Source: a virus. From it: 23,071 nt of DNA. Under the pieces are notes generated by a model. The model did not search any database and had not been told where the DNA came from. It saw only the letters and a list, made by a program, of their open reading frames with translations. The DNA is taken from positions 1-23,071 of the IMG/VR virus record IMGVR_UViG_3300046468_002352; one strand, 5' to 3'. Position numbers and translations under genes: made by a program. The stretch's first letter is position 1. Every line of letters begins with the position of its first letter. Shown in pieces: positions 5,734 to 21,638 of this stretch.

Positions 5734-6027
5734 ATGAGATACGGAGCATCAAAAATAAAAAAAGGAACGGGTGGTAATAGAACACTTACAACTACTTTAT
5801 ATCCACGTATAAAAGAAAAAACTACAGATGTTTATTTAGTTATAAAAGAGAAAACTAGACTTGATCACCTGGCTTTTAAGTTTTATGAGAATGCCAACTA
5901 TTGGTGGATCATAGGAGTGGCCAACAGCATAAAAGGAACAATGTATGTAACACCGGGTACACAGGTCAGGGTTCCACGTGAAATATCAGCGGTAATACAG
6001 GATTTTAATAAGATTAATAAAAGATAA
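5734..6027 (+). CDS. Small baseplate protein with LysM-like fold (gp53-like)
   Basis: A 97-residue basic protein starting one base after the previous stop. Residues about 40-82 carry a LysM-type pattern: TRLDHLAFKFYENANYWWII, then ANSI, then TPGTQVRVP. The usual pattern is 'D-x-L-A-x-x-x-Y-G-x-x-x-x-W-x-x-I-x-x-x-N ... P-G-x-x-L-x-I-P'. In T4, gp53 is a LysM-like baseplate wedge protein; in P2-like tails a LysM protein (gpX) sits between tape measure and hub. Both fit this position. I infer a non-enzymatic structural adaptor joining tube and baseplate. It is translationally linked to the gene before it and lacks its own Shine-Dalgarno site. Confidence 0.65.
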   Translation: MRYGASKIKKGTGGNRTLTTTLYPRIKEKTTDVYLVIKEKTRLDHLAFKFYENANYWWIIGVANSIKGTMYVTPGTQVRVPREISAVIQDFNKINKR

Positions 6028-9215: not shown

Positions 9216-10511
9216 ATGCGATTTATTGAAACTGGGAAAGATGTAGGTGAACTTCTTGATTTGTTGAAATCGGGTGAATGCTTTATTCACGTATTTGACA
9301 GATTCAATGTACATCCTATTAAAAACGAACCACTTATGGCAATGATTCGTCATTTTGACAAAGACGAAGTTTATGTAATTTCGTTTTCTCATCCCGATTG
9401 CATTCCGACAAAAGTTGAAACACTTGAACTTATTGCAAACACCGAGTGTAAAAAGTACGTATTAAACAGAAAAAATCTGTTGCATTACGTGACGATGAAA
9501 AATTGCGTGGACATAGGATGGTGTATTTACTCGGAAACTTTGAATACAATTGAAGTGGAAAAGTTTCGTTGCAAAGATACAAGGTCTGTGCCGATTATGC
9601 AAATGATAAAAAGTTTCAAGGATACCTTCAAACTTTTTTATTCTTCTGTACAATCAATGGATTTACAAATGAGTCAGTATGAAACTGAGTTCTCTGAAGT
9701 ATTGTGTGAACTTGAAAAAGGTGGGTTGTATGTAAACAATTTTGAGTTGGGTGATCCGTCTTTGGTAGATGAAAATCAATGCGTTTATACTCAATACAAT
9801 TTACACACACCTACATCTCGTCCAAGTAATCGTTTTGGAAACGTCAACTATGCGGCCTTGAACAAAAAGACCGGTGATAGAGATTGTTTCGTAAGCCGAT
9901 ATGGAAAAGACGGAGCAATCGTTATGATGGATTATGAAAGTTATCATCTTCGTTTGTTTGGTAATCATGTAAATTTTGATTTACCCGATGAATCTTTACA
10001 CGGATACTTGGGAAATTTGTATCATGGAAAAGACGAACTAACTGAAGAAGAATATGATTTATCCAAGAAGATTACATTTAATTTGATATACGGAGGTATA
10101 ACAGACGATGTTCGTGACAATGTTCCGTTTATGGCAAGAATCGCAGAATTCGTAGACGAAGCATGGAATTCATATAAACAAAATGGATACATTGAAACTT
10201 GGTTTTACAATAGAAAACTCAAGTCTTCTATTTTTGATGATAAAACAAATTCATACAAAGTTTTTAATTATCTTCTTCAGTCCGCCGAGACCGAACGCAA
10301 TTGCAAGATTCTGAAAAATATATTTGAATATTTAAACGACAAAACTACAAAGTGTGTACTTTATACATACGATGCATTTTTATTTGATGTACCCAAAGAA
10401 GAGTTTCCATTGGTTGTTGATTTAAAGAAAACAATGAACCCAGATGGAGATTATCCTATACGAACTTATGTAGGTGCTAGTTACGGAGATTTGCGTGAAG
10501 TGAGTGTTTGA
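9216..10511 (+). CDS. Short, divergent family-A DNA polymerase-like protein
   Basis: A 431-residue protein with recognisable polymerase I palm and finger motifs. A TSR at 200-202 matches the 'TGR.S' motif (R202 = E. coli Pol I R668). MMDYESYHLRLFG at 237-249 is motif A (D239 = D705). KKITFNLIYGG at 284-294 is motif B (K284 = K758, F288 = F762, Y292 = Y766). YTYDAFLFDV at 383-392 is motif C (D386 = D882). Unusual points by eye alignment: the E710 steric-gate position is His244, R754 is Tyr280, and the H881 and E883 positions are Tyr385 and Ala387. Motif A to C spans 147 residues against 177 in Pol I. The first 150 residues may be a decayed 3'-5' exonuclease fold; I see no intact DxE motif. It may be a repair or accessory polymerase, or inactive. 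The start lacks a Shine-Dalgarno site and sits on the predicted transcription start. Confidence 0.7.
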   Translation: MRFIETGKDVGELLDLLKSGECFIHVFDRFNVHPIKNEPLMAMIRHFDKDEVYVISFSHPDCIPTKVETLELIANTECKKYVLNRKNLLHYVTMKNCVDIGWCIYSETLNTIEVEKFRCKDTRSVPIMQMIKSFKDTFKLFYSSVQSMDLQMSQYETEFSEVLCELEKGGLYVNNFELGDPSLVDENQCVYTQYNLHTPTSRPSNRFGNVNYAALNKKTGDRDCFVSRYGKDGAIVMMDYESYHLRLFGNHVNFDLPDESLHGYLGNLYHGKDELTEEEYDLSKKITFNLIYGGITDDVRDNVPFMARIAEFVDEAWNSYKQNGYIETWFYNRKLKSSIFDDKTNSYKVFNYLLQSAETERNCKILKNIFEYLNDKTTKCVLYTYDAFLFDVPKEEFPLVVDLKKTMNPDGDYPIRTYVGASYGDLREVSV

Positions 10512-10554: not shown

Positions 10555-10953
10555 ATGAAAACACAATTACTTTGCACTTTTACAGATATAAACAACTATT
10601 CAAACGCAATTGACGGGGTAACAAAATTTTACGATGTCGTTTTTGGAAAAGTATATTTGTTGCAAAATAAAGACAATGTTAACGAAATACTGTTGACATA
10701 CAATATTAATGTAGATAATATTAATGTTAAAAGTTTTTATCCGAACACCATAAGTGTTCATAGAAAAAAAGACTCTAACACACTATACACAATAAACTCA
10801 TTGAACGAACTAATTAAACAACTCAATAATGGTATATTAGATACCAGATATTCTGTTGATTGGAAAAATTATGAGAACACGATATTGTTAACAGACCCTG
10901 TGACGGGTATAAAATTAATCCCAACGAAACTATATCAAATTATTAAAATTTGA
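10555..10953 (+). CDS. Small conserved phage protein of unknown function
   Basis: The protein is 132 residues from the ATG at 10555 (MKTQLLCTFTD). The open frame reaches upstream to a GTG at 10504 that overlaps the polymerase-like gene, but the extra 17 residues are AT-derived (IIIIYLS) and unlike a protein start, so I prefer 10555. The body is Asn/Ile-rich, with HRKKDSNTLYTINSLNELIK near the middle and a C-terminus ending in LYQIIKI. The pattern (MKTQLLCTFT, LLQNK, TYNI, ISVHRKK..NTLYTIN.LN.LI) recalls an uncharacterised small protein of many marine T4-like phages. No catalytic motif or membrane segment is visible. Neither start has a good Shine-Dalgarno site. It probably shares a transcript with the polymerase-like gene. 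Confidence 0.6.
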   Translation: MKTQLLCTFTDINNYSNAIDGVTKFYDVVFGKVYLLQNKDNVNEILLTYNINVDNINVKSFYPNTISVHRKKDSNTLYTINSLNELIKQLNNGILDTRYSVDWKNYENTILLTDPVTGIKLIPTKLYQIIKI

Positions 10954-10990: not shown

Positions 10991-10997
10991 AATGGTT

Positions 10998-13100
10998 ATG
11001 GAAAATAAAAAACGACAAAAACAAAATAAGGAAGAACGAGCAAGCACCCTCGAATCCTTGATAAAGTCTGACAATGATGATGCGGTAAAAACATATGAAA
11101 CTTTGAACTGGACCGGTTCTTTTTGGGACTACGTTGCAATGTTGGAAGAAACCCCACGAATTGCAAGAAATTCATATCAACGATTGTACGATATGGTAAT
11201 GTCACACGGAACTGAAGAATTCACATACTGCAAACGAAAACACGTTAAGTATAAATTTTTTGAAGGTCTTGGTGACATTTCTATTTATGGTCTTGAAGAA
11301 AATTTGATGGAGTTTATGGACATTTTGAAAAGTGCAAGTAGGCATTATGGTCCAGAAAGACGAGTTATTTTGCTACACGGACCAGTCGGTAGTAGTAAAT
11401 CAACAATCGTAACTGCTCTTAAGAAAGGTCTTGAGGCATATACCCAAACAGACGAAGGTGCTTTATATTCGTTTAGTTGGAAACTTACTGACAAAGATGG
11501 AAATGATACTCTCGTTCCATGTCCCATGAACGAAGAACCACTCAAACTTCTTCCGGATGACGTCCGTAATCAAATTATTGGTAACCTCAATGCATCTAGG
11601 AATGATGATGATTACAAATTAAAATTGGATGGTGCGTTGAATCCAGTAAACGAGTTTTACTATAATCAACTTATGGAAATGCATAACGGAGATTATCGTA
11701 AAGTACTTGATCACATTGTTATACGTCGTGTGACTTTGTCCGAAAAGAATCGTGTCGGCATTGGTACTTTCCAACCAAAAGATGAAAAATCACAAGATGC
11801 AACTGAACTTACAGGTGATATCAATTATCGTAAGTTGGCAGAATACGGAAGTGAAAGTGATCCACGTGCATTTGATTTTGACGGAGAATTCTTGGTATCC
11901 AATCGTGGACTTATTGAATTTCAAGAAATTCTTAAACTTCAAACTGAATTCCTTTACGATTTACTTGGTGCAACTCAAGAGCATCGTGTTAAACCACGTC
12001 GTTTTAATCAAGTGCCGATTGATGAAGTTATTCTTGGTCATACCAACAATGCTGAATTTGAAAAGTTAACAAACAACAAGTTCATGGAAGCACTTCGTGA
12101 TAGAACCATTAAAATTGATATTCCATATCTTCTAAAAATTGATGAAGAGAAGAAGATTTATGATCACTTCTATAATGGTACAACTGTTAATAAGCACATT
12201 GCCCCTCATACAACTTATCTGGCTGCGTTATTCGCAGTTGTAAGTCGTTTAGAAGAAAGTTCCAAGCAAGATATGAGTATCATTCAAAAAGCAAAACTTT
12301 ACAATGGCCAAAGTGTACACGGATTCACAGATGAACACGTAAAAGAAATGCAAGATGAATCACCAAAAGAAGGATTATATGGTGGAGTATCAGCACGATT
12401 CATTCAGAATCAGTTTTCCAACGCAATTGTAAATCCAAGAATGGGTGCAAAAAGTTTGAATCCATTTATGCTGTTTGCACAAATTCGTGAAGGACTTAAA
12501 AGTTATAGTGGATTCAATAGTGAAGATGATAAAAAGAATCTGATGGAACGACTTGAACTCGTAGAAAAAGAATATGACAGAATTGTGAAACGAGAAGTAC
12601 AACAAGCACTTAGTAGCAGTGAAGAAGCAATAAAAGCAACTTGCACCAACTACATTGATAACATCGTTGCGTATATTCAAGATGAAAAAGTTACTAACCA
12701 AGTTACTGGTAAAGAAGAAGTTGCCAATGAACAACTTATGCGTAGTATCGAAGAAAAAATTGGTATTTCCAATGGTATGAAAGATGATTTCCGTAGAGAA
12801 ATTATGAATTATATGGGTGGACTTGCCGCTAAGGGTAAAGAGTTCAAATACGACTCTAACGAGCAGTTATACAAAGCACTTGAAAAGAAGTTGTTTGAAG
12901 ATACTAAAGATAGCATCAAGTTATCTGCTCTTGCTCAAGATACTGCAACTGTCGTTGACAAAGAACTTCTTGAGAAGATTGACGCATTAAAGCAACGTCT
13001 TATTACTTCGTTTGGATACGATGAAGATAGTGCTTCAGATGTTCTTACATATGTTGGAAGTATTTTTGCGAGAGGTGATGCAGACGAAGACGAAGATTAA
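10998..13100 (+). CDS. prkA: PrkA/YeaG-family AAA+ serine protein kinase
   Basis: A 700-residue protein from the ATG at 10998. AAGG at 10986-10989 is 8 bases from this ATG but only 2 from the in-frame ATG at 10992, so 10998 is preferred. The Walker A is GPVGSSKS (128-135), the family-specific form. Further PrkA features are an ANRG-like element (SNRGLIEFQEIL, Asn302-Gly304), GHTNNAEFEK at about 347, and DRTIKIDIPYLLKIDEEKKIY, matching the family's 'DR...I.VPY.L...EE..IY'. The C-terminal half is helical and charged, as in the PrkA C-terminal domain. Bacterial YeaG is about 640 residues, so this copy is slightly longer, with a basic N-terminal tail and an acidic end (DADEDED). Bacterial PrkA is linked to stress, nitrogen starvation or sporulation; it was described as a serine kinase, and protease activity has also been proposed. 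It is followed by its usual partners, DUF444 and SpoVR. Confidence 0.93.
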   Translation: MENKKRQKQNKEERASTLESLIKSDNDDAVKTYETLNWTGSFWDYVAMLEETPRIARNSYQRLYDMVMSHGTEEFTYCKRKHVKYKFFEGLGDISIYGLEENLMEFMDILKSASRHYGPERRVILLHGPVGSSKSTIVTALKKGLEAYTQTDEGALYSFSWKLTDKDGNDTLVPCPMNEEPLKLLPDDVRNQIIGNLNASRNDDDYKLKLDGALNPVNEFYYNQLMEMHNGDYRKVLDHIVIRRVTLSEKNRVGIGTFQPKDEKSQDATELTGDINYRKLAEYGSESDPRAFDFDGEFLVSNRGLIEFQEILKLQTEFLYDLLGATQEHRVKPRRFNQVPIDEVILGHTNNAEFEKLTNNKFMEALRDRTIKIDIPYLLKIDEEKKIYDHFYNGTTVNKHIAPHTTYLAALFAVVSRLEESSKQDMSIIQKAKLYNGQSVHGFTDEHVKEMQDESPKEGLYGGVSARFIQNQFSNAIVNPRMGAKSLNPFMLFAQIREGLKSYSGFNSEDDKKNLMERLELVEKEYDRIVKREVQQALSSSEEAIKATCTNYIDNIVAYIQDEKVTNQVTGKEEVANEQLMRSIEEKIGISNGMKDDFRREIMNYMGGLAAKGKEFKYDSNEQLYKALEKKLFEDTKDSIKLSALAQDTATVVDKELLEKIDALKQRLITSFGYDEDSASDVLTYVGSIFARGDADEDED

Positions 13101-13120
13101 TAGTCAACGGATACATCATT

Positions 13121-14275
13121 ATGCCATCACGTAGAATACGAGAAGACCACGGTGAATACAGAGATATCGTCAAAGGAAACGTTGACGAAAAACTCAAAAA
13201 GCACATTAAAGGTGGTCAACGAGTTACACGAAGAGGAAAAGACTTCGTTGTTGTTCGTGTTCCTCATGTAGAACTTCCAAGTTTTCGTTACGGACAACCT
13301 TCTGATGGAGGTGGTATCGGCAACGGAGAAGCAGAAGTCGGTGATGAGGTCGGAGAAGGTCCACCACAAGGTCAAGGTCAGGATGGTCAACCAGGTGAGG
13401 GTGGAGAAGGTGAAGGTGAGGGTCACGAAATTGATGTAGGAATCAGTATGGATGCTTACTTTGATATGATCGGCGAAGAACTTCGTTTGCCGAATCTACT
13501 TCCTAAAGAAAATGGGGAAATGGTCAAAGAAAAAATAAAGTGGAATCGTATTGCAAAAGTGGGAAACAATAGTTTGCTTCACAAACGCAAAACACTCAAA
13601 AATGCTTTCAAACGACTTATCTCTTCTTCAGATTATGATCCAGAAGATTTATCTAACTTTTATCCAATCAAAGATGATAAAGAATTCAGAAGTTGGAGTT
13701 CAGTAGAAGTACCTGATACAAACGCCGCAATCTTTTTTGTGTCGGACATATCTGCGAGTATGGATGAACCTAAACGTGCATTGATTCGTGAATTGTGCTG
13801 GTATCTTGATAACTGGGTTCAACGATTTTATCAAGAAACACAAGTAAAGTATATTGTACACGATCATCATGCACAAGAAGTAGATCAAGAAAAATTCTAC
13901 AAATATAAAAGTGGTGGTGGAACACAAATTAGTAGTGCATTTCATTTAGTCAACGATATTGTAGAAAAAGCATTTCCATTAAACGAGTGGAACATTTATG
14001 TATTTTATTTAAGTGACGGAGAAAACTTTGGTTCTGATAATGATTTATGTGTTGATTATTTAACAAAAATGCAAACATATGCAAACTTAATCGGCATCAC
14101 CGAAGTAAAAGCAATTAGAAGTTGGGCAACATTTTTGCCACACATTCAATCTAAATTATCAAGTGGAGAACTTGATCCAAAAACAATAGTAACTGCGTCA
14201 ATGGACTCGCAAGCAGATGTATTTAAGACACTACAAAAACTGCTTACACCTGCTGACGAAGAAGTACCTTTTTAA
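13121..14275 (+). CDS. yeaH: YeaH-type DUF444 protein with von Willebrand A-like domain
   Basis: A 384-residue protein (E. coli YeaH about 427). The N-terminus is basic and includes RRIREDHGEYRDIVKGNV and VRVPHVELPSFRYG, which parallels YeaH's early segment. Residues 61-102 are a Gly/Glu/Gln-rich linker. ISMDAYFDMIGEELRLPNL (109-127) matches the 'IS.DEYLDLLFEDLALPNL' element. The C-terminal half is a vWA-like fold with an intact metal site: D209-x-S211-x-S213, T268 in a GGGT loop, and D299 in SDGEN. VHDHHAQEVD (246-255) matches YeaH's 'IRHHTQAKEVDE'. About 40 residues between the linker and vWA domain are shorter than in YeaH. Bacterial YeaH is a partner of PrkA; a substrate or adaptor role is likely but not established. 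It lies 20 bases after prkA and has only a weak Shine-Dalgarno site. Confidence 0.92.
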   Translation: MPSRRIREDHGEYRDIVKGNVDEKLKKHIKGGQRVTRRGKDFVVVRVPHVELPSFRYGQPSDGGGIGNGEAEVGDEVGEGPPQGQGQDGQPGEGGEGEGEGHEIDVGISMDAYFDMIGEELRLPNLLPKENGEMVKEKIKWNRIAKVGNNSLLHKRKTLKNAFKRLISSSDYDPEDLSNFYPIKDDKEFRSWSSVEVPDTNAAIFFVSDISASMDEPKRALIRELCWYLDNWVQRFYQETQVKYIVHDHHAQEVDQEKFYKYKSGGGTQISSAFHLVNDIVEKAFPLNEWNIYVFYLSDGENFGSDNDLCVDYLTKMQTYANLIGITEVKAIRSWATFLPHIQSKLSSGELDPKTIVTASMDSQADVFKTLQKLLTPADEEVPF

Positions 14276-14279
14276 TATT

Positions 14280-15845
14280 ATGGGAATTGCATGGGAAGTA
14301 GATAGTTTAAACGAAGGAGTGTGTCCAGAGTTGGCAGCTCTTATACCTGATTGCCTCAAGGCGTGTTACGACAATGGACTTGATCCATATCCTTTAGTCA
14401 TCGAAGAATTTGATGCAGACGAAATAGTTGAGATTGCCGCTTATGGTGGATTTCCTGTTCGTTATCCTCATTTTAATTTCGGGCAACAATTTGAACAACT
14501 TCATCATCAATATCACTCTGGTATGGGTAAGATTTATGAGATGGTTGTAAACACTGATCCAACTTATATGTACCTACAACGAAACAATCCTATCGTTGAT
14601 AATTTGACCGTTGTTGCTCACGCAACTGCACATAGTGATTTCTTTAAAAATAACATTATGTTCAAACACACAAATCGTAACATGATGAATGTAATGGCAA
14701 ATCATAGTGATAAAATTCGTATGTATATGGATCGGTTCGGTCGCAAAAAAGTGAAAGACTTTTTGAATGCGGCTCTTGCAATTGATGATTTAATTGATCC
14801 ATCACTTTGTTATCGTGAAAGTAATTTAAAGAAAGCAACTAAATTCAACTTTGAAGACCGTCAACCACGTGAACACGTTTCTCGTATGGAAACAAAGGAA
14901 TATATGCAGAAGTATGTCAACCCTCCTCATTATATTGAAAAGCAGAGAAGAGACAGAGAAGAGCGTACAAAGTTAGCAGAAAACAAATTTCCTCTACGTC
15001 CTGAACGAGATATTATGTTGATGATTATCAATCATTGTCGGTTAGAACCTTGGCAACAAAATATTCTTAGTATGATTCGTGATGAATCTATTTATTATCG
15101 TCCACAAGGAATGACAAAAGTTCTCAATGAAGGTTGGGCAAGTTATTGGGATTCGTTTATCATGGCAAGTTGCAATTTTGCAGGAGACGAAGGAATTTTT
15201 GATTATGCAAAACACCACGCAGGAGTTCTTGGTGGAAAATACAATATGAACAATCCATATAAACTTGGAAACACTTTATTGCGTGACATTGAAGATAGAT
15301 GGGATAAAGGAAAGTTTGGAAAAGAATATGAAAATTGCGACAACGGAGACGAAAAAAGATATTGGAATAAACACCTCGGTCTTGGTCGTGAAAAACTTTT
15401 TGAAGTTCGTGAGTTGTACAATGATGTAACATTTCTTAATGAATTTTTTACACGTGATTTTTGTGAAAAGTATGAATACTTTGAATATGCACTTGATAAA
15501 TCAACCAACAAATATGTAGTTGTTAGTAAAGATCATAAAAAGATAAAAGAAAAGTTAGTTGAACGTCATGTTAATATGGGTAGACCGGTTATTTATATGG
15601 AGAATATGAAGTATAAAAATACTGAAATTCTACTCAGACACGATTTTGATGGAAGACCACTAGATGTAAAATACGCAACAGGTACAATGGCATATCTACA
15701 TGAAATTATTAAAAAACCAATTAATATTCTTACATATGATGTAGAAACTGAAGGTTATGGTAAAGAAAAAGAAACTATTGAAGTAGAAGTTCGTTATCGG
15801 TATAATAATGGAGAAATGAAACGTTACGAAGGTGGTAAAGTTTGA
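14280..15845 (+). CDS. spoVR: SpoVR family protein
   Basis: A 521-residue protein, close to E. coli YcgB (about 510). I choose the ATG at 14280, four bases after the DUF444 stop: an upstream in-frame ATG (14217) would overlap yeaH by 59 bases and add 21 residues with no family similarity. Family signatures are GFPVRYPHFNFGQQFEQ (57-73), YMYLQRNNPIVDN (96-108), HATAHSDFFKNN (114-125) and NEGWASYWD (283-291). The conserved His, Asp, Asn and Glu positions suggest a metal or nucleotide site, but its biochemistry is unknown. In Bacillus, SpoVR affects spore cortex formation; in Gram-negative bacteria the homologue is part of a stationary-phase stress set with PrkA/YeaG and YeaH. Here it is the third gene of that set. 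The following methyltransferase is in the same reading frame, just past this stop. Confidence 0.93.
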   Translation: MGIAWEVDSLNEGVCPELAALIPDCLKACYDNGLDPYPLVIEEFDADEIVEIAAYGGFPVRYPHFNFGQQFEQLHHQYHSGMGKIYEMVVNTDPTYMYLQRNNPIVDNLTVVAHATAHSDFFKNNIMFKHTNRNMMNVMANHSDKIRMYMDRFGRKKVKDFLNAALAIDDLIDPSLCYRESNLKKATKFNFEDRQPREHVSRMETKEYMQKYVNPPHYIEKQRRDREERTKLAENKFPLRPERDIMLMIINHCRLEPWQQNILSMIRDESIYYRPQGMTKVLNEGWASYWDSFIMASCNFAGDEGIFDYAKHHAGVLGGKYNMNNPYKLGNTLLRDIEDRWDKGKFGKEYENCDNGDEKRYWNKHLGLGREKLFEVRELYNDVTFLNEFFTRDFCEKYEYFEYALDKSTNKYVVVSKDHKKIKEKLVERHVNMGRPVIYMENMKYKNTEILLRHDFDGRPLDVKYATGTMAYLHEIIKKPINILTYDVETEGYGKEKETIEVEVRYRYNNGEMKRYEGGKV

Positions 15846-15848
15846 TCG

Positions 15849-16604
15849 GTGAATCCAAACACAAATCAAATATATCATTTAGATAATTTAAAGTTACTTG
15901 GTAGATTAGATACCGAGTCCATAAATCTAATTTATTGTGATATTTTATACGGAACTGGTAAAAAGTTCAAAGATTACCAAGATTTACCAACTGACCGTCA
16001 TATAATAGATGCTCATTATATTCCTCGTTTGCACGAAATGAAACGAGTATTGAAATCAAACGGAACAATTTATTTACAAATGGATTTACGTATAGTTCAT
16101 TGGATACGAGTTTTGATGGATGGTGTATTTGGATATGAAAATTTCAGAAATCAAATTGTGGTAAAATTTAATATCGGTGGAAGAGGTAAACGAGAGTTTG
16201 CAAAAAAGCACGATTACATTATAGTGTATACAAAGTCGGATGAATTTATTTTTAATGACCTTGATATAAGAGTTCCATATAAGTCAGTTATCAGCAAAAA
16301 ACAAGATAGACCAAACATAACCGAAGAGAAATTAAAAATCGGAACGATACCTACAAATGTTTGGGATGATATTCCGTCAGGATTAAAAGTTAAAAAAGCA
16401 ACTGACTATTATAGTGAGAAACATCCTAAGATTTTAGAAAGAATAATTAAAGCAAGTAGCAATGAAAATGATGTAGTTGCAGATTTTTATTGTGGAAGTG
16501 GTACTACTTTTGCAGTTGCCAAGTCGTTGAATCGCAACTTTATAGGATGTGATATTAATGCCAATGCCGTGCGAATTTCCAACGAACGATTAAGCAAAAA
16601 ATAG
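15849..16604 (+). CDS. DNA methyltransferase (beta-class N6-adenine or N4-cytosine type), unusual motif IV
   Basis: A 251-residue protein starting at GTG 15849. In-frame TGA (15843) lies immediately upstream, and the only later ATGs would remove motif IV. The order motif IV then motif I is that of the beta class. IYCDILYGTGKKF (28-40) stands where 'IY.DPPY.TG..F' is expected, so the DPPY tetrapeptide is DILY (31-34). Motif I is DFYCGSGTT (212-220), followed by NRNFIGCDIN, as in 'R.FIG.DI'. HPKILERIIKASSNENDVVA matches the segment that precedes motif I in type III-like and phage methylases. I cannot assign a target sequence. No restriction endonuclease lies next to it, so an orphan phage methylase protecting or marking phage DNA is likely. 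The DILY change leaves activity uncertain. There is no well-spaced Shine-Dalgarno site; translation probably couples to spoVR. Confidence 0.85.
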   Translation: MNPNTNQIYHLDNLKLLGRLDTESINLIYCDILYGTGKKFKDYQDLPTDRHIIDAHYIPRLHEMKRVLKSNGTIYLQMDLRIVHWIRVLMDGVFGYENFRNQIVVKFNIGGRGKREFAKKHDYIIVYTKSDEFIFNDLDIRVPYKSVISKKQDRPNITEEKLKIGTIPTNVWDDIPSGLKVKKATDYYSEKHPKILERIIKASSNENDVVADFYCGSGTTFAVAKSLNRNFIGCDINANAVRISNERLSKK

Positions 16605-17030: not shown

Positions 17031-17861
17031 ATGGCAATTGACCTAGACAAAATCAAAGCAAAACTTACGAATCTCTCTCAGAGTAACAATCGTAAGAATT
17101 ATCAATGGAAACCCCAACCGGGTAAACAACAGGTTCGTATCGTACCTTATATGCATCAACCAGATAATCCGTTCATCGAGTTGTTTTTCCACTATGGAAT
17201 CAACAATCGGACTTATCTTTCTCCCAAGTCGTTTGGTCGTCCTGATCCAATCGTAGAGTTCGCAGAAAAGTTGACTCGTAGTGGAGACAAAGATGATTAT
17301 CGTATGGGGCGTTCCTTAATGCCAAAGATGAGAACTTTTGTTCCTGTCATCGTTCGTGGTGAAGAAGCAGAAGGAGTTCGTTTTTGGGGATTTGGTAAAG
17401 AAGTTTACCAAGAACTACTAGGTGTCATCGCAGACCCCGATTATGGAGACATTACCGACCCAGTCAACGGAAGAGACATTACAATTGAATTTCTTTCTGC
17501 TGAAGAGGCTGGTCGTTCATTTCCAAAGACAAATATTCGTGTTAAACCCAACACATCACCTGTATCCGACAACAAAAATATTGCTGACGGAGTTGCTAAC
17601 AATCAAGCAGAAATTACTGAAATCTATCAAGAACTCAGTTATGATGATTTGAAAGAAGCACTTGAAAAGTGGGTGAGTGGAGAATCTGAAGAAGATGCTC
17701 CTCCTGCTGAATCGGTATCAACTGATGAAGTTGTTGTTGAATCAACACAGACCGAGGTTAAACAACCAAAAGTTGCAAGTGCAACTTCTGAGCAAAGCAA
17801 ACCAAACGCAACTTCCACGGAAGATGTTGAGGCTGCTTTTGAAGAGTTGTTTAAGTCTTAA
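17031..17861 (+). CDS. 32: Single-stranded DNA-binding protein, T4 gp32-like
   Basis: A 276-residue protein that coats single-stranded DNA at the fork and during recombination. The N-terminus (KIKAKLTNLSQ, then WKPQPGKQQVRIVPY) is the gp32 pattern of a short basic B segment leading into the OB-fold core. YLSPKSFG and VRFWGFGKEVYQELLG follow, matching the gp32 core in order. The C-terminal 50 residues are acidic and low in complexity, ending in EDVEAAFEELFKS, like the acidic interaction tail of gp32. Odd feature: there is no cysteine in the protein, so the His/Cys zinc site of T4 gp32 is absent; the segment after SPKSFG is RPDPIVEFAEKL where CPVC would be expected. Its neighbours (UvsX, flap nuclease, helicase) fit. 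It has its own promoter and a clear Shine-Dalgarno site. Confidence 0.9.
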   Translation: MAIDLDKIKAKLTNLSQSNNRKNYQWKPQPGKQQVRIVPYMHQPDNPFIELFFHYGINNRTYLSPKSFGRPDPIVEFAEKLTRSGDKDDYRMGRSLMPKMRTFVPVIVRGEEAEGVRFWGFGKEVYQELLGVIADPDYGDITDPVNGRDITIEFLSAEEAGRSFPKTNIRVKPNTSPVSDNKNIADGVANNQAEITEIYQELSYDDLKEALEKWVSGESEEDAPPAESVSTDEVVVESTQTEVKQPKVASATSEQSKPNATSTEDVEAAFEELFKS

Positions 17862-17937: not shown

Positions 17938-19098
17938 ATGGCAAAGAAAAAAGAAGTAAAAGCAACAAGCAAGTCCGATGATTTAGCAAGTGTACTTGCA
18001 GATAGTTTAAATACCGCATATAAAGACGAAGGTAAAGTAGCCTTCTTTTTAAGTGAAGGTGATGACCCATCACTAATATCAGATTGGATTTCAACTGGAA
18101 GTAGTCTTCTTGATCTTGCCATTTCAAATCGTCCCAACGGAGGAATCCCAACCGGCCGAATCACAGAACTAACTGGACTTGAACAAAGTGGAAAAAGTTT
18201 AGTATCTGGACACATTCTTGCGGAAACTCAAAAGAAAGGGGGTGTTGCGGTATTAATTGATACCGAGACCAGTGTATCAGTTGAGTATTTAAAAGCAATT
18301 GGTGTTGATACTGAAAAGTTATTGTATGTTCATGTTGATACGATTGAAGATATATTTGCAACGATTGACAACATCATCGCAACTATTCGTAAAAGCAACA
18401 AAGATAAACTCGTAACGATTGTAACCGACAGTGTATCAGCTGCGTCAACTAAAATTGAAATGGCTGCAGATTATGCAAAAGATGGTTACGCAACAACCAA
18501 AGCAATTTTAATTAGTAAAGCAATGCGTAAGTTGACCTCAACAATTGGAAGACAAAAAATCGCATTAGTATTTACTAACCAACTTCGTCAAAAGATGGGA
18601 GTTATGTTTGGTGACCCCTGGACAACAAGTGGTGGTAAAGCAATTGCGTTTCACGCAAGTGTTCGTATTCGTCTTAAAAGTATGGGTCAAATTAAAAAAG
18701 GTGCAACTACTGAAGTTGTCGGTGGTAAGTGTGAAGCAACCATTGTAAAAAACCGAATGGGTCCACCTCAAAGAAAAGCATCATTTGAAATTTATTTTAA
18801 TCGTGGTATTGATGATATAGGAAGTTGGATAACAACATTAAAAACTCACAAAATCTTAAAACAAGGTGGTGCTTATTATTCATTCACGGATTCTAAAGGA
18901 AAAGATTATAAGTTTATGGCAAAAGAATTTCCTGAAATGCTGAAAGATGTAGAACTCAAAAACGAATTATATCAGCATATTTGTGATAATCTTATCATGG
19001 AATATGAATCAGCAAATAGTGTGGTAGACGAAGATGTTGAGTTTACAGATAATGCAGAACTTGAAGATGCAGAATTGGCATCTGTTTCAAATGAGTGA
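17938..19098 (+). CDS. uvsX: RecA/UvsX-type recombinase
   Basis: A 386-residue protein (T4 UvsX 391) that forms filaments on ssDNA and drives strand exchange and recombination-dependent replication. Walker A is GLEQSGKS (80-87), with K86. IDTETS holds the catalytic Glu110 (RecA E96 position). Walker B is VTIVTDSVSA with D164. VFTNQLRQKMGVMFGDPWTTSGG (positions 211-233, with Q215 at the RecA Q194 position) covers the strand preceding loop L2 and the L2 region. The ATP loop is nearer to bacterial RecA than the T4 UvsX version. The C-terminus is acidic. It lacks a Shine-Dalgarno site; the context TATTAAATATG is shared with the helicase start. Its last 8 bases overlap the next gene (ATGAGTGA). 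Confidence 0.93.
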   Translation: MAKKKEVKATSKSDDLASVLADSLNTAYKDEGKVAFFLSEGDDPSLISDWISTGSSLLDLAISNRPNGGIPTGRITELTGLEQSGKSLVSGHILAETQKKGGVAVLIDTETSVSVEYLKAIGVDTEKLLYVHVDTIEDIFATIDNIIATIRKSNKDKLVTIVTDSVSAASTKIEMAADYAKDGYATTKAILISKAMRKLTSTIGRQKIALVFTNQLRQKMGVMFGDPWTTSGGKAIAFHASVRIRLKSMGQIKKGATTEVVGGKCEATIVKNRMGPPQRKASFEIYFNRGIDDIGSWITTLKTHKILKQGGAYYSFTDSKGKDYKFMAKEFPEMLKDVELKNELYQHICDNLIMEYESANSVVDEDVEFTDNAELEDAELASVSNE

Positions 19099-20170
19099 TA
19101 AAAAAAAGATATTTAGTTTATTTCAAGAATTTTCCGAGGAACAAAAAGCAGAATTAGAAGCAGATCGAAATATAAATTCTGATGCTCTTTTAATTGATGG
19201 TATGAACACATTTATGCGTGTTTGGAGTATGTATCCAACCACAAACGACAATGGTGATCATATCGGTGGTTATACCGGGTTCCTAAAAAGTATAGGACAC
19301 GCGATTCGTTTGCGTAAACCCACACGATGTATCGTTGTATTTGATGGAAAGGGTGGAAGTGCAAGAAGACGTAAAATCTTTCCCGACTATAAAATGAAAA
19401 AGAATGTTCGGTTTCGTGTAAATCGTGCGTTGAGCTTAGACTTGGATCAAACCGAAGAATCAAGTTCGATGAAGTATCAGATAGTTAAATTGATACAATA
19501 TTTGAATATGCTTCCTGTTACTACTATATGTATGGATAATGTAGAAGCAGATGATGTTATGGCATTATTAGCACGATCATATTTTAGTGGTCTTGGAAAA
19601 AAGTGTACAATAATGAGTACCGACAAAGATTTTCTTCAGTTGGTTGATAACGATGTAACTGTTTATAGTCCAACTAAAAGAACAGTTTATACTCCTGAAA
19701 AAGTTTCGTTGGAATATGGAATTCATCCAAATAATTTTTTATTATATAGAACCATTGATGGTGATCGTGGGGATAATATAGATGGAATCAAAGGTATAGG
19801 TGAAAAGAAACTTAAAACTGCGTTTCCAGAACTCGCAACCGAGCAACTGATAAGCAGAGAAGATTTAATAAAAATTTCAGAAGATAACCTCAAAGAAATG
19901 CCTTTGTATAAAAATTTTCTAAAAGAAGATAATCAGAGTTTACTTAAACGAAATTATGATTTAATGCAATTAAAAGATAGTATTCTTCCTGCAAGTATGC
20001 AAACGAAAGTATTTGATCATGTAGATTCTCATGTAACTGAACTTAATAAATTTGAATTTAGTAAAAAGTTCGCAGAAGACCAATTGTGGGCTGCGTTTCC
20101 CAATCACCATAACTGGCTTATGGAAACTTGGACCATTTTGAACAACTATGCAATTACAAGTAATTCGTAG
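19091..20170 (+). CDS. rnh: RNase H-type 5'-3' exonuclease/flap nuclease (T4 Rnh-like)
   Basis: A 359-residue protein from ATG 19091, in the 8-base ATGAGTGA overlap with uvsX. An earlier in-frame ATG (19034) would overlap uvsX by 65 bases and precedes the acidic/PIN pattern without similarity. It is a PIN-like FEN nuclease: LLIDGMN (D36), VFDGKGGSARRRKIFPDYK (D85), VEADDV (E152, D154, D155), STDKDF (D178, D180), then the helix-hairpin segment DGDRGDNIDGIKGIGEKK (D223, D225, D228). In T4 this enzyme removes RNA primers and flaps during Okazaki fragment maturation. T4 RNase H is 305 residues; this copy has an extra roughly 30-residue N-terminal helix and a longer C-terminus. It is co-transcribed with uvsX. 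Confidence 0.88.
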   Translation: MSDKKKIFSLFQEFSEEQKAELEADRNINSDALLIDGMNTFMRVWSMYPTTNDNGDHIGGYTGFLKSIGHAIRLRKPTRCIVVFDGKGGSARRRKIFPDYKMKKNVRFRVNRALSLDLDQTEESSSMKYQIVKLIQYLNMLPVTTICMDNVEADDVMALLARSYFSGLGKKCTIMSTDKDFLQLVDNDVTVYSPTKRTVYTPEKVSLEYGIHPNNFLLYRTIDGDRGDNIDGIKGIGEKKLKTAFPELATEQLISREDLIKISEDNLKEMPLYKNFLKEDNQSLLKRNYDLMQLKDSILPASMQTKVFDHVDSHVTELNKFEFSKKFAEDQLWAAFPNHHNWLMETWTILNNYAITSNS

Positions 20171-20225: not shown

Positions 20226-21638
20226 ATGACGGAGACTAATAATAATAATGTAGATACCTTACAAAAGTTTGGAACTGCATTTCAAAGTAAAACAATTCGT
20301 GCTTTAATTGATGATAAAAAATTCTTGGACAGAACACATGATATCATTGAAACAGAGTATTGGGAAAGTGAAGCACACAAATGGATTGTTGATGAGATTT
20401 TAACGCATCATCAAAAATACAAAAAAACCGCAACATTAGATGTATTTAAAATTAAATGTGATGATGTAGGAATTGATTCATTAAAAGCGGCAATTATAGA
20501 TCAACTAAGAAATATATTTACGCAAGTTGATCTAAATGATACAGAGTTCGTTAAAAACGAATTTTTAGACTTTTGTAAGAACCAAAAGTTGAAAAATGCA
20601 ATTATGCAAAGTGTTGACTTTCTTAAAGGTGGTCAATACGAATCAATCAAACGAATAGTTGATGATGCATTAAAAGCAGGAACTGCACGTGACATGGGTC
20701 ACGATTATGCACGTGATATTGAACTTAGAATGTCAGAAACTGCACGTGATACAATAGGCACTGGATGGGAAGTCATTGATGATTTAACAAACGGAGGTTT
20801 GGGACCAGGAGAACTTGGTGTTATTATTAGTAGTGCCGGTGGAGGAAAAAGTTGGTGCTTGGCATCACTTGGAAAGTCGGCAATGAAAATGGGTAAAAAT
20901 GTTTTGCATTATACAATGGAACTTAACGAGTGCTATGTAGGTCTTCGTTATGATAGTTGTTTTACAGGTATCCCGTTTCAAGATATTATTGAACACGAAG
21001 AAACTGTAAAAAATGTTGTAGCAAACATCAAAGGAAAACTTCTTATTAAAGAATATCCAACAAAAAGTGTAGGAGTTAGTACAATTCTTGCTCATGCAAG
21101 TTTAGCAAATACAATGGGGTATCCTGTTGATATGGTCGTGATTGATTATGCAGATATTTTATCTCCAGGTAATCACGGAAATAATGCCAACAGTTATGTT
21201 GAGCAAGGAGGAATTTATGAGGATCTCCGAGGCCTTGCGGGCGAACTCGGAGTACCTGTGTGGACTGCATCACAAGCAAGTCGTTCATCGTTGGAAGATA
21301 ATATTATTGAAGCACAAAAAGTTGCGGATAGTTATCGGAAAATAATGACGGCAGACTTTGTGATAAGTTTATCAAGAAAAGCAACTGACAAAGTCAGTAA
21401 CACAGGTAGATTTCATGTCATTAAAAATCGGTTTGGACCCGATGGTTTGACATTTCCAAGTAGAGTTGACACGTCTTCGGGTGTTATTGAAATATATGAT
21501 GAAAAAAGTACAAAGGGTACAGAAATAATGGTGGAAATGAATGATTCTGAAAATGGTGCAAAGAATCTTCTTAAATCTAAGTACGACCAAATGAACAAAA
21601 ATTCATATAATAACGAAGATGTGTCGGATATTGGATAA
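20226..21638 (+). CDS. 41: Replicative DNA helicase, DnaB/T4 gp41-like
   Basis: A 470-residue protein (T4 gp41 475). The N-terminal 160 residues are helical, as in the DnaB/gp41 N-terminal region. The RecA-like motor domain begins at about 175: GLGPGELGVIISSAGGGKSW with Walker A 202-209 (K208), MELN with the catalytic Glu232 position, and Walker B VDMVVIDYADIL (D307). SQASRSS (about 355) and IKNRFGPDG, with the arginine finger region near the end, are typical of the family. It unwinds DNA 5'-3' ahead of the polymerase as a hexamer and normally works with a primase (gp61), which is not in this window. Order uvsX-rnh-41 parallels T4 uvsX-40-41 with the nuclease inserted. It lacks a Shine-Dalgarno site. 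Confidence 0.92.
   Translation: MTETNNNNVDTLQKFGTAFQSKTIRALIDDKKFLDRTHDIIETEYWESEAHKWIVDEILTHHQKYKKTATLDVFKIKCDDVGIDSLKAAIIDQLRNIFTQVDLNDTEFVKNEFLDFCKNQKLKNAIMQSVDFLKGGQYESIKRIVDDALKAGTARDMGHDYARDIELRMSETARDTIGTGWEVIDDLTNGGLGPGELGVIISSAGGGKSWCLASLGKSAMKMGKNVLHYTMELNECYVGLRYDSCFTGIPFQDIIEHEETVKNVVANIKGKLLIKEYPTKSVGVSTILAHASLANTMGYPVDMVVIDYADILSPGNHGNNANSYVEQGGIYEDLRGLAGELGVPVWTASQASRSSLEDNIIEAQKVADSYRKIMTADFVISLSRKATDKVSNTGRFHVIKNRFGPDGLTFPSRVDTSSGVIEIYDEKSTKGTEIMVEMNDSENGAKNLLKSKYDQMNKNSYNNEDVSDIG

Follow-up and report, generated by a model that had tools for sequence, protein, structure and literature searches.

Does the 431-residue open reading frame at positions 9216–10511 (plus strand) of the window, by which we mean the whole 23,071-nucleotide stretch analyzed here, encode a working DNA polymerase, and what might a phage use it for? 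The sole Pfam match of this protein is DNA_pol_A (PF00476, E = 1.5e-6); the T4 gp43-type family-B domain (PF00136) was absent from the reading frame in the same search. With 27.9 bits, the match does not reach the curated cutoff of 34.3 bits, which some members of the family pass. Nevertheless, this similarity exceeds chance, because 55 of 61 aligned relatives also match DNA_pol_A (best E = 2.2e-13), and because a profile built from the family finds the Klenow fragment (E = 2.3e-9). A search for relatives, as proposed in a preliminary description of this locus, also led to a named family. The window protein is 29% identical to immuto35A_1 over 90% of its length (E = 2e-49), and the two could be placed in a joint alignment. 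The phage that encodes it, Flavobacterium phage immuto, is named as founder of divPolA1, a family that Yutin et al. (2024, PMC11348598) established on 14 phages, immuto_3-5A among them. The window protein is almost certainly a member of this family. As described in the main text of that report, divPolA1 proteins have a truncated thumb, an inactivated exonuclease and conserved palm residues, and their genomes also encode a regular PolA, PolB or PolC; its authors concluded that polymerase activity is probably retained and serves replication. In the literature, the name divPolA1 occurs only in this report and its preprint.

Good coverage of the protein among annotated phages is limited to six records, which belong to the Flavobacterium immuto phages, Microcystis phage Mel-JY01 and the 484-kb huge phage LR756508. 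Metagenomic members number in the hundreds, and an alignment-based scan of IMG/VR returned at least 516 confirmed stretches with relatives. The collected members are about 28–95% identical to the window protein. To assess conservation, 117 distinct members, which form 53 clusters at 70% identity, were aligned with E. coli Pol I, T7 gp5, three SPO1-type phage PolAs and four full-length PolAs of divPolA1 phages. One subclade is N-terminally shortened to about 336–342 residues and has lost most of the exonuclease-like domain. Cellular homologues were found on only four contigs of metagenome-assembled genomes; L215, L217 and L218, binned as Nitrosopelagicus, Winogradskyella and Rickettsiaceae, carry divPolA1 together with the small gene w10504 discussed below. 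Since all four carry w10504 as well, they are probably misbinned phage contigs. Rhodothermus phage RM378 was also considered as a relative and rejected: it gave no family-A match, and of the two fragments annotated as polymerase, one is a 5′ nuclease and the other the exonuclease part of a family-B enzyme, with the PolB core elsewhere.

The gene is under strong purifying selection, with dN/dS values of 0.04–0.14 between pairs of relatives. These values exclude a decaying gene, and together with the invariance of key residues in 117 members they rule out a pseudogene. The residues singled out in the preliminary description (D239, D386, K284, F288, Y292, H244, Y280 and the YDA motif) all map to E. 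coli Pol I as it had stated. The motif A aspartate D239 (positions 9930–9932; all active-site coordinates are on the plus strand) corresponds to D705, and the aspartate of motif C, D386, to D882. Both are present in 117 of 117 members, as are R202 (R668), K284 (K758) and Q355 (Q849). The motif B core at 10065–10091 further contains F288 (F762, 115/117) and Y292 (Y766, 116/117), and N351 (N845) is kept in all members except one.

Four other positions are replaced relative to E. coli Pol I. The steric-gate glutamate E710 is a histidine (H244, 9945–9947) and H881 a tyrosine (Y385), both without exception among the 117 members. The triphosphate-binding R754 is represented by Y280 (10053–10055), a tyrosine in 101 of 117. 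All eight full-length PolAs in the comparison set for these positions have Glu at the gate and Arg at 754. Motif C at 10368–10376 reads YDA in place of H881-D882-E883, with Ala (81 members) or Ser (36) in the third position. The change at E883 alone is not special, since ordinary phage PolAs vary there too (Ser in the SPO1 type, Gln in the regular PolA of immuto). In addition, the helix after Q355 contains three residues, E358, T359 and N362 (10287–10301), that are absent from the full-length PolAs compared and nearly invariant here (117, 117 and 116 of 117). The spacing between motifs A and C is 147 residues versus 177 in Klenow, in agreement with the shortening by about 30 residues noted earlier. 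Because the odd residues are invariant across members and dN/dS is low, this altered site reads as a conserved design and not as decay. Each of E710, R754 and H881, and often E883 too, is important in Klenow. With all of them replaced in divPolA1, ordinary dNTP polymerization may be weak or absent.

An AlphaFold2 model of the window protein (pLDDT 91.3, pTM 0.89) predicts a family-A polymerase fold over the palm, fingers and exonuclease-like domains. The preliminary description had proposed such a structure prediction as a check. The best Foldseek match is Klenow with DNA (1d8y, E = 7.7e-18), and VIA-align superimposes Bst polymerase with Z = 28.7 over 405 aligned residues (rmsd 3.4 Å). The nearest folds in these structure searches are DNA polymerases I, nu and theta, with no RNA polymerase among the matches listed. 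The chain is laid out as an inactive DEDD-exonuclease-like N-terminal domain (residues ~1–125), linker helices, the palm and shortened fingers. The thumb is absent, a feature that had been overlooked: the corresponding region aligns as 19 residues versus 110 in Klenow, and residues 169–220 of the model lack any helix of four or more residues. With the thumb gone, DNA binding must come from elsewhere. The N-terminal domain retains an exonuclease-like fold, but the catalytic acids D355, E357, D424 and D501 align to M, R, T and T (the alignment is approximate in this region), so that the domain is predicted to be dead. The earlier impression of a decayed exonuclease region agrees with this. In summary, the large fragments of Klenow, Bst and Taq share with the window protein the fold, the catalytic Asp pair, R668, H734, K758, F762, Y766, N845 and Q849, and differ from it at E710H, R754Y, H881Y and E883A, in having a thumb and exonuclease acids, and in the longer distance between motifs A and C.

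If divPolA1 is a polymerase, it is not the only one in these phages. A full replicase accompanies divPolA1 in 17 records. A PolA of about 780 residues is present in immuto (MW353176), G007, G008, G009, G010, G011 and G016, and a PolB in Mel-JY01 (PP395634), LR756508, G006, G018, G019, G020, G022, G023, G024 and G025. The suspicion of a second polymerase was therefore justified, since complete relatives also carry a full PolA, PolB or PolC; the view that this would be unusual was not, because phages of this lineage regularly have an extra polymerase, as described for divPolA1 in the main text of the 2024 report (PMC11348598). Likewise, the remark that T4-type phages use a family-B polymerase holds for T4, while the replicase of several relatives is a full family-A enzyme. 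The suggested check for a gp43-type polymerase gave a PolB in the ten records listed above and on a further contig, G030, and no other polymerase on the 23-kb window itself. By Pfam or phmmer, no PolA, PolB or PolC was detected on the closest contigs G001, G002, G004 and G005 (77–94 kb). G030 encodes an 837-residue PolB closest to that of Mel-JY01, and comes from the same metagenome as a relative with 95% identity to the window protein. The two contigs have zero genes in common, and G030 encodes a protein homologous to one that lies near the start of G002; G030 is probably a complementary part of a genome of the window-clade type. Two annotations in these records deserve mention. In LR756508 (L004), divPolA1 occurs with a 575-residue PolC-type protein and with a PolB region that reads as at least two pieces across about 6 kb. 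In Mel-JY01, the gene labeled DNA polymerase I (L003:20318-21358) encodes a 346-residue 5′-3′ exonuclease homologue, and the actual divPolA1 is annotated as hypothetical.

In a quick tree with long branches, divPolA1 forms one group with 100% support, on a long branch apart from all full-length PolAs including those of the same phages. Together with the conservation in 117 members, this bears out the earlier proposal of a distinct minimal family-A clade with an altered active site, and the tree gives no support to a recent duplication of the PolA of the phage itself. The full-length PolA of immuto (immuto35A_71, 777 residues, adjoining GroES/GroEL) illustrates the distance: it is a family-A enzyme from the same genome as a divPolA1, but it has Glu at 710, Arg at 754, an HD motif C and a thumb region. 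In the same quick tree, members from phages with PolB and with PolA replicases fall in different parts of divPolA1, indicating that divPolA1 stayed while the replicase changed.

The surroundings of the gene are also conserved. Across 22 divergent loci, and as far as each contig reaches (some end early), the order is structural genes (w4245, gp53-like, w6048, w8786), divPolA1, w10504, SSB, UvsX, 5′ nuclease and helicase. In the window, all on the plus strand, these include the gp53-like baseplate wedge subunit of the structural block just upstream (5734–6027; phrog_7145, E = 2.1e-9), the gp32-type single-strand DNA-binding protein (17031–17861; PF08804, E = 5e-13), the UvsX/RecA recombinase (17938–19098; PF00154, E = 9.6e-60), a 5′-3′ exonuclease resembling T4 RNase H (19034–20170, start possibly inside the listed ORF; PF02739, E = 3.8e-30) and the DnaB/gp41-like replicative helicase (20226–21638; PF03796, E = 1.4e-13; phrog_19, E = 9.1e-72).

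The immediate neighbor, w10504 (10555–10953, plus strand), codes for 132 residues from its ATG. It is present at 61 of 61 loci with enough downstream sequence. Among annotated phages it occurs in exactly the same six records as divPolA1, hundreds of family members are found in IMG/VR, and every larger w10504 contig tested also carries divPolA1. The protein is confidently predicted to form a ferredoxin-like domain of β-α-β-β topology. It matches no Pfam or PHROG family with a credible score and no solved structure by sequence; a structure search gave no Foldseek match under E = 0.3 and a best Z of 6.7, which is within chance. On one contig (L098:1699-3252), divPolA1 and w10504 lie in a single open frame in which the intervening stop is lost, although evidence from one contig is weak.

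We surmise that divPolA1 is kept as a second, accessory family-A DNA polymerase beside the main replicase. Its palm and fingers, with both metal-binding Asp residues, the O-helix Lys, Phe and Tyr, and the template and primer contacts, would be predicted to catalyze nucleotide transfer, most likely to synthesize short pieces of DNA, non-processively and without proofreading, where gaps, flaps or recombination intermediates occur. Such substrates could be handed over by the neighboring gp32-type SSB, UvsX, 5′ nuclease and gp41-type helicase, and w10504 may be a partner that replaces thumb or tethering functions. The present analysis shows homology, fold, conservation, the missing thumb, the co-occurrence with w10504 and the coexistence with a replicase, and we infer catalysis, the role in gap filling or recombination and the function of w10504; the statement as a whole, that divPolA1 serves as an accessory DNA polymerase of low processivity and without proofreading, together with these four proteins, has in our estimate a probability of about 0.6. 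Another explanation, that divPolA1 is the main and only replicase of the window phage, is highly improbable. The gene does sit in a replication cluster, and the closest fragments (G001, G002, G004 and G005) lack another polymerase, but relatives with large records carry one, the PolB on G030 comes from the metagenome of the relative with 95% identity, and an enzyme that lacks a thumb and has a dead exonuclease is unlikely to serve as a replicase.

Two further explanations take the unusual active site as their starting point. The protein could be an active nucleotidyltransferase with a changed substrate, such as ribonucleotides, an RNA template or unpaired 3′ ends, and thus a primer maker, an RNA polymerase or a terminal transferase. 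The replacements at E710, R754 and H881 occur in a coordinated way and are conserved along with E358, T359 and N362, a pattern more like the rebuilding of a pocket than a loss, and sugar selection may possibly be altered. We regard this explanation as possible though less probable than an accessory DNA polymerase, since the closest folds among the matches listed are DNA polymerases and a Toprim primase is already encoded in MW353176, LR756508, G001, G002 and G007 (with weaker matches in PP395634 and G006), which makes a primase role for divPolA1 unnecessary. Its most specific form, in which a pocket with a His gate, Tyr for R754 and H881 and the new Glu, Thr and Asn uses ribonucleotides or RNA while w10504 supplies the thumb in trans, is speculative. 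Alternatively, a catalytically dead polymerase may have been retained because it binds DNA or docks proteins, as a scaffold of the replication and recombination complex. The loss of thumb and exonuclease, four changed active-site positions and the strict co-occurrence of w10504 would fit such a role, which the preliminary description had also entertained. However, the Asp pair is normally the first to be lost in dead paralogues, and the equivalents of D705, D882, K758, R668 and Q849 are present in every member, with Y766 and N845 missing from only one each. Because the catalytic pair never varies, a dead scaffold is unlikely, and less likely than a changed substrate.

An RNA-polymerase role has been raised for the other divergent family, divPolA2 of barbaviruses, in the main text of PMC11348598. 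By that description, divPolA2 too is an additional, divergent PolA that lacks a canonical thumb and accompanies a regular PolB, but its N-terminal domain is unrelated and its gene neighborhoods vary. The window protein shares with divPolA1 as described there the family-A palm with the main catalytic residues, the truncated thumb, the inactivated 3′-5′ exonuclease and the conserved replication genes downstream, and in relatives the same position as an extra to a regular PolA, PolB or PolC. With the family itself already in the literature, the surprise is limited. The main text of PMC11348598 makes no mention of the E710, R754 and H881 replacements, the new invariants or a partner gene. New relative to the published family are these coordinated replacements, the invariants E358, T359 and N362, the co-occurring partner, the subclade with a truncated N-terminus and the hundreds of members from metagenomes. 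A large T4-related phage lineage appears to keep a dedicated second polymerase while its main replicase swaps between families A and B. The invariant non-canonical site offers a natural experiment on which family-A residues nucleotide selection and catalysis really require, and w10504 is a concrete partner to assay.

The window clade is only about 30% identical to immuto in divPolA1 and differs from it further by an insertion between w10504 and SSB that is found in this clade only. It consists of genes for a PrkA-type serine kinase, YeaH/DUF444 and SpoVR in a row (10992–15845), the bacterial yeaG-yeaH-ycgB stress set, followed by a DNA N6/N4 methyltransferase gene (15849–16604; PF01555, E = 9.6e-43). 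The PrkA, YeaH and SpoVR genes are 79–98% identical among window-clade phages and more conserved than the polymerase. Finally, the phage contig G005 contains at 27–45 kb (L224-L225) reading frames that by eye resemble a thiolase, a serine dehydratase and a succinylarginine dihydrolase, possibly auxiliary genes or the product of a chimera.
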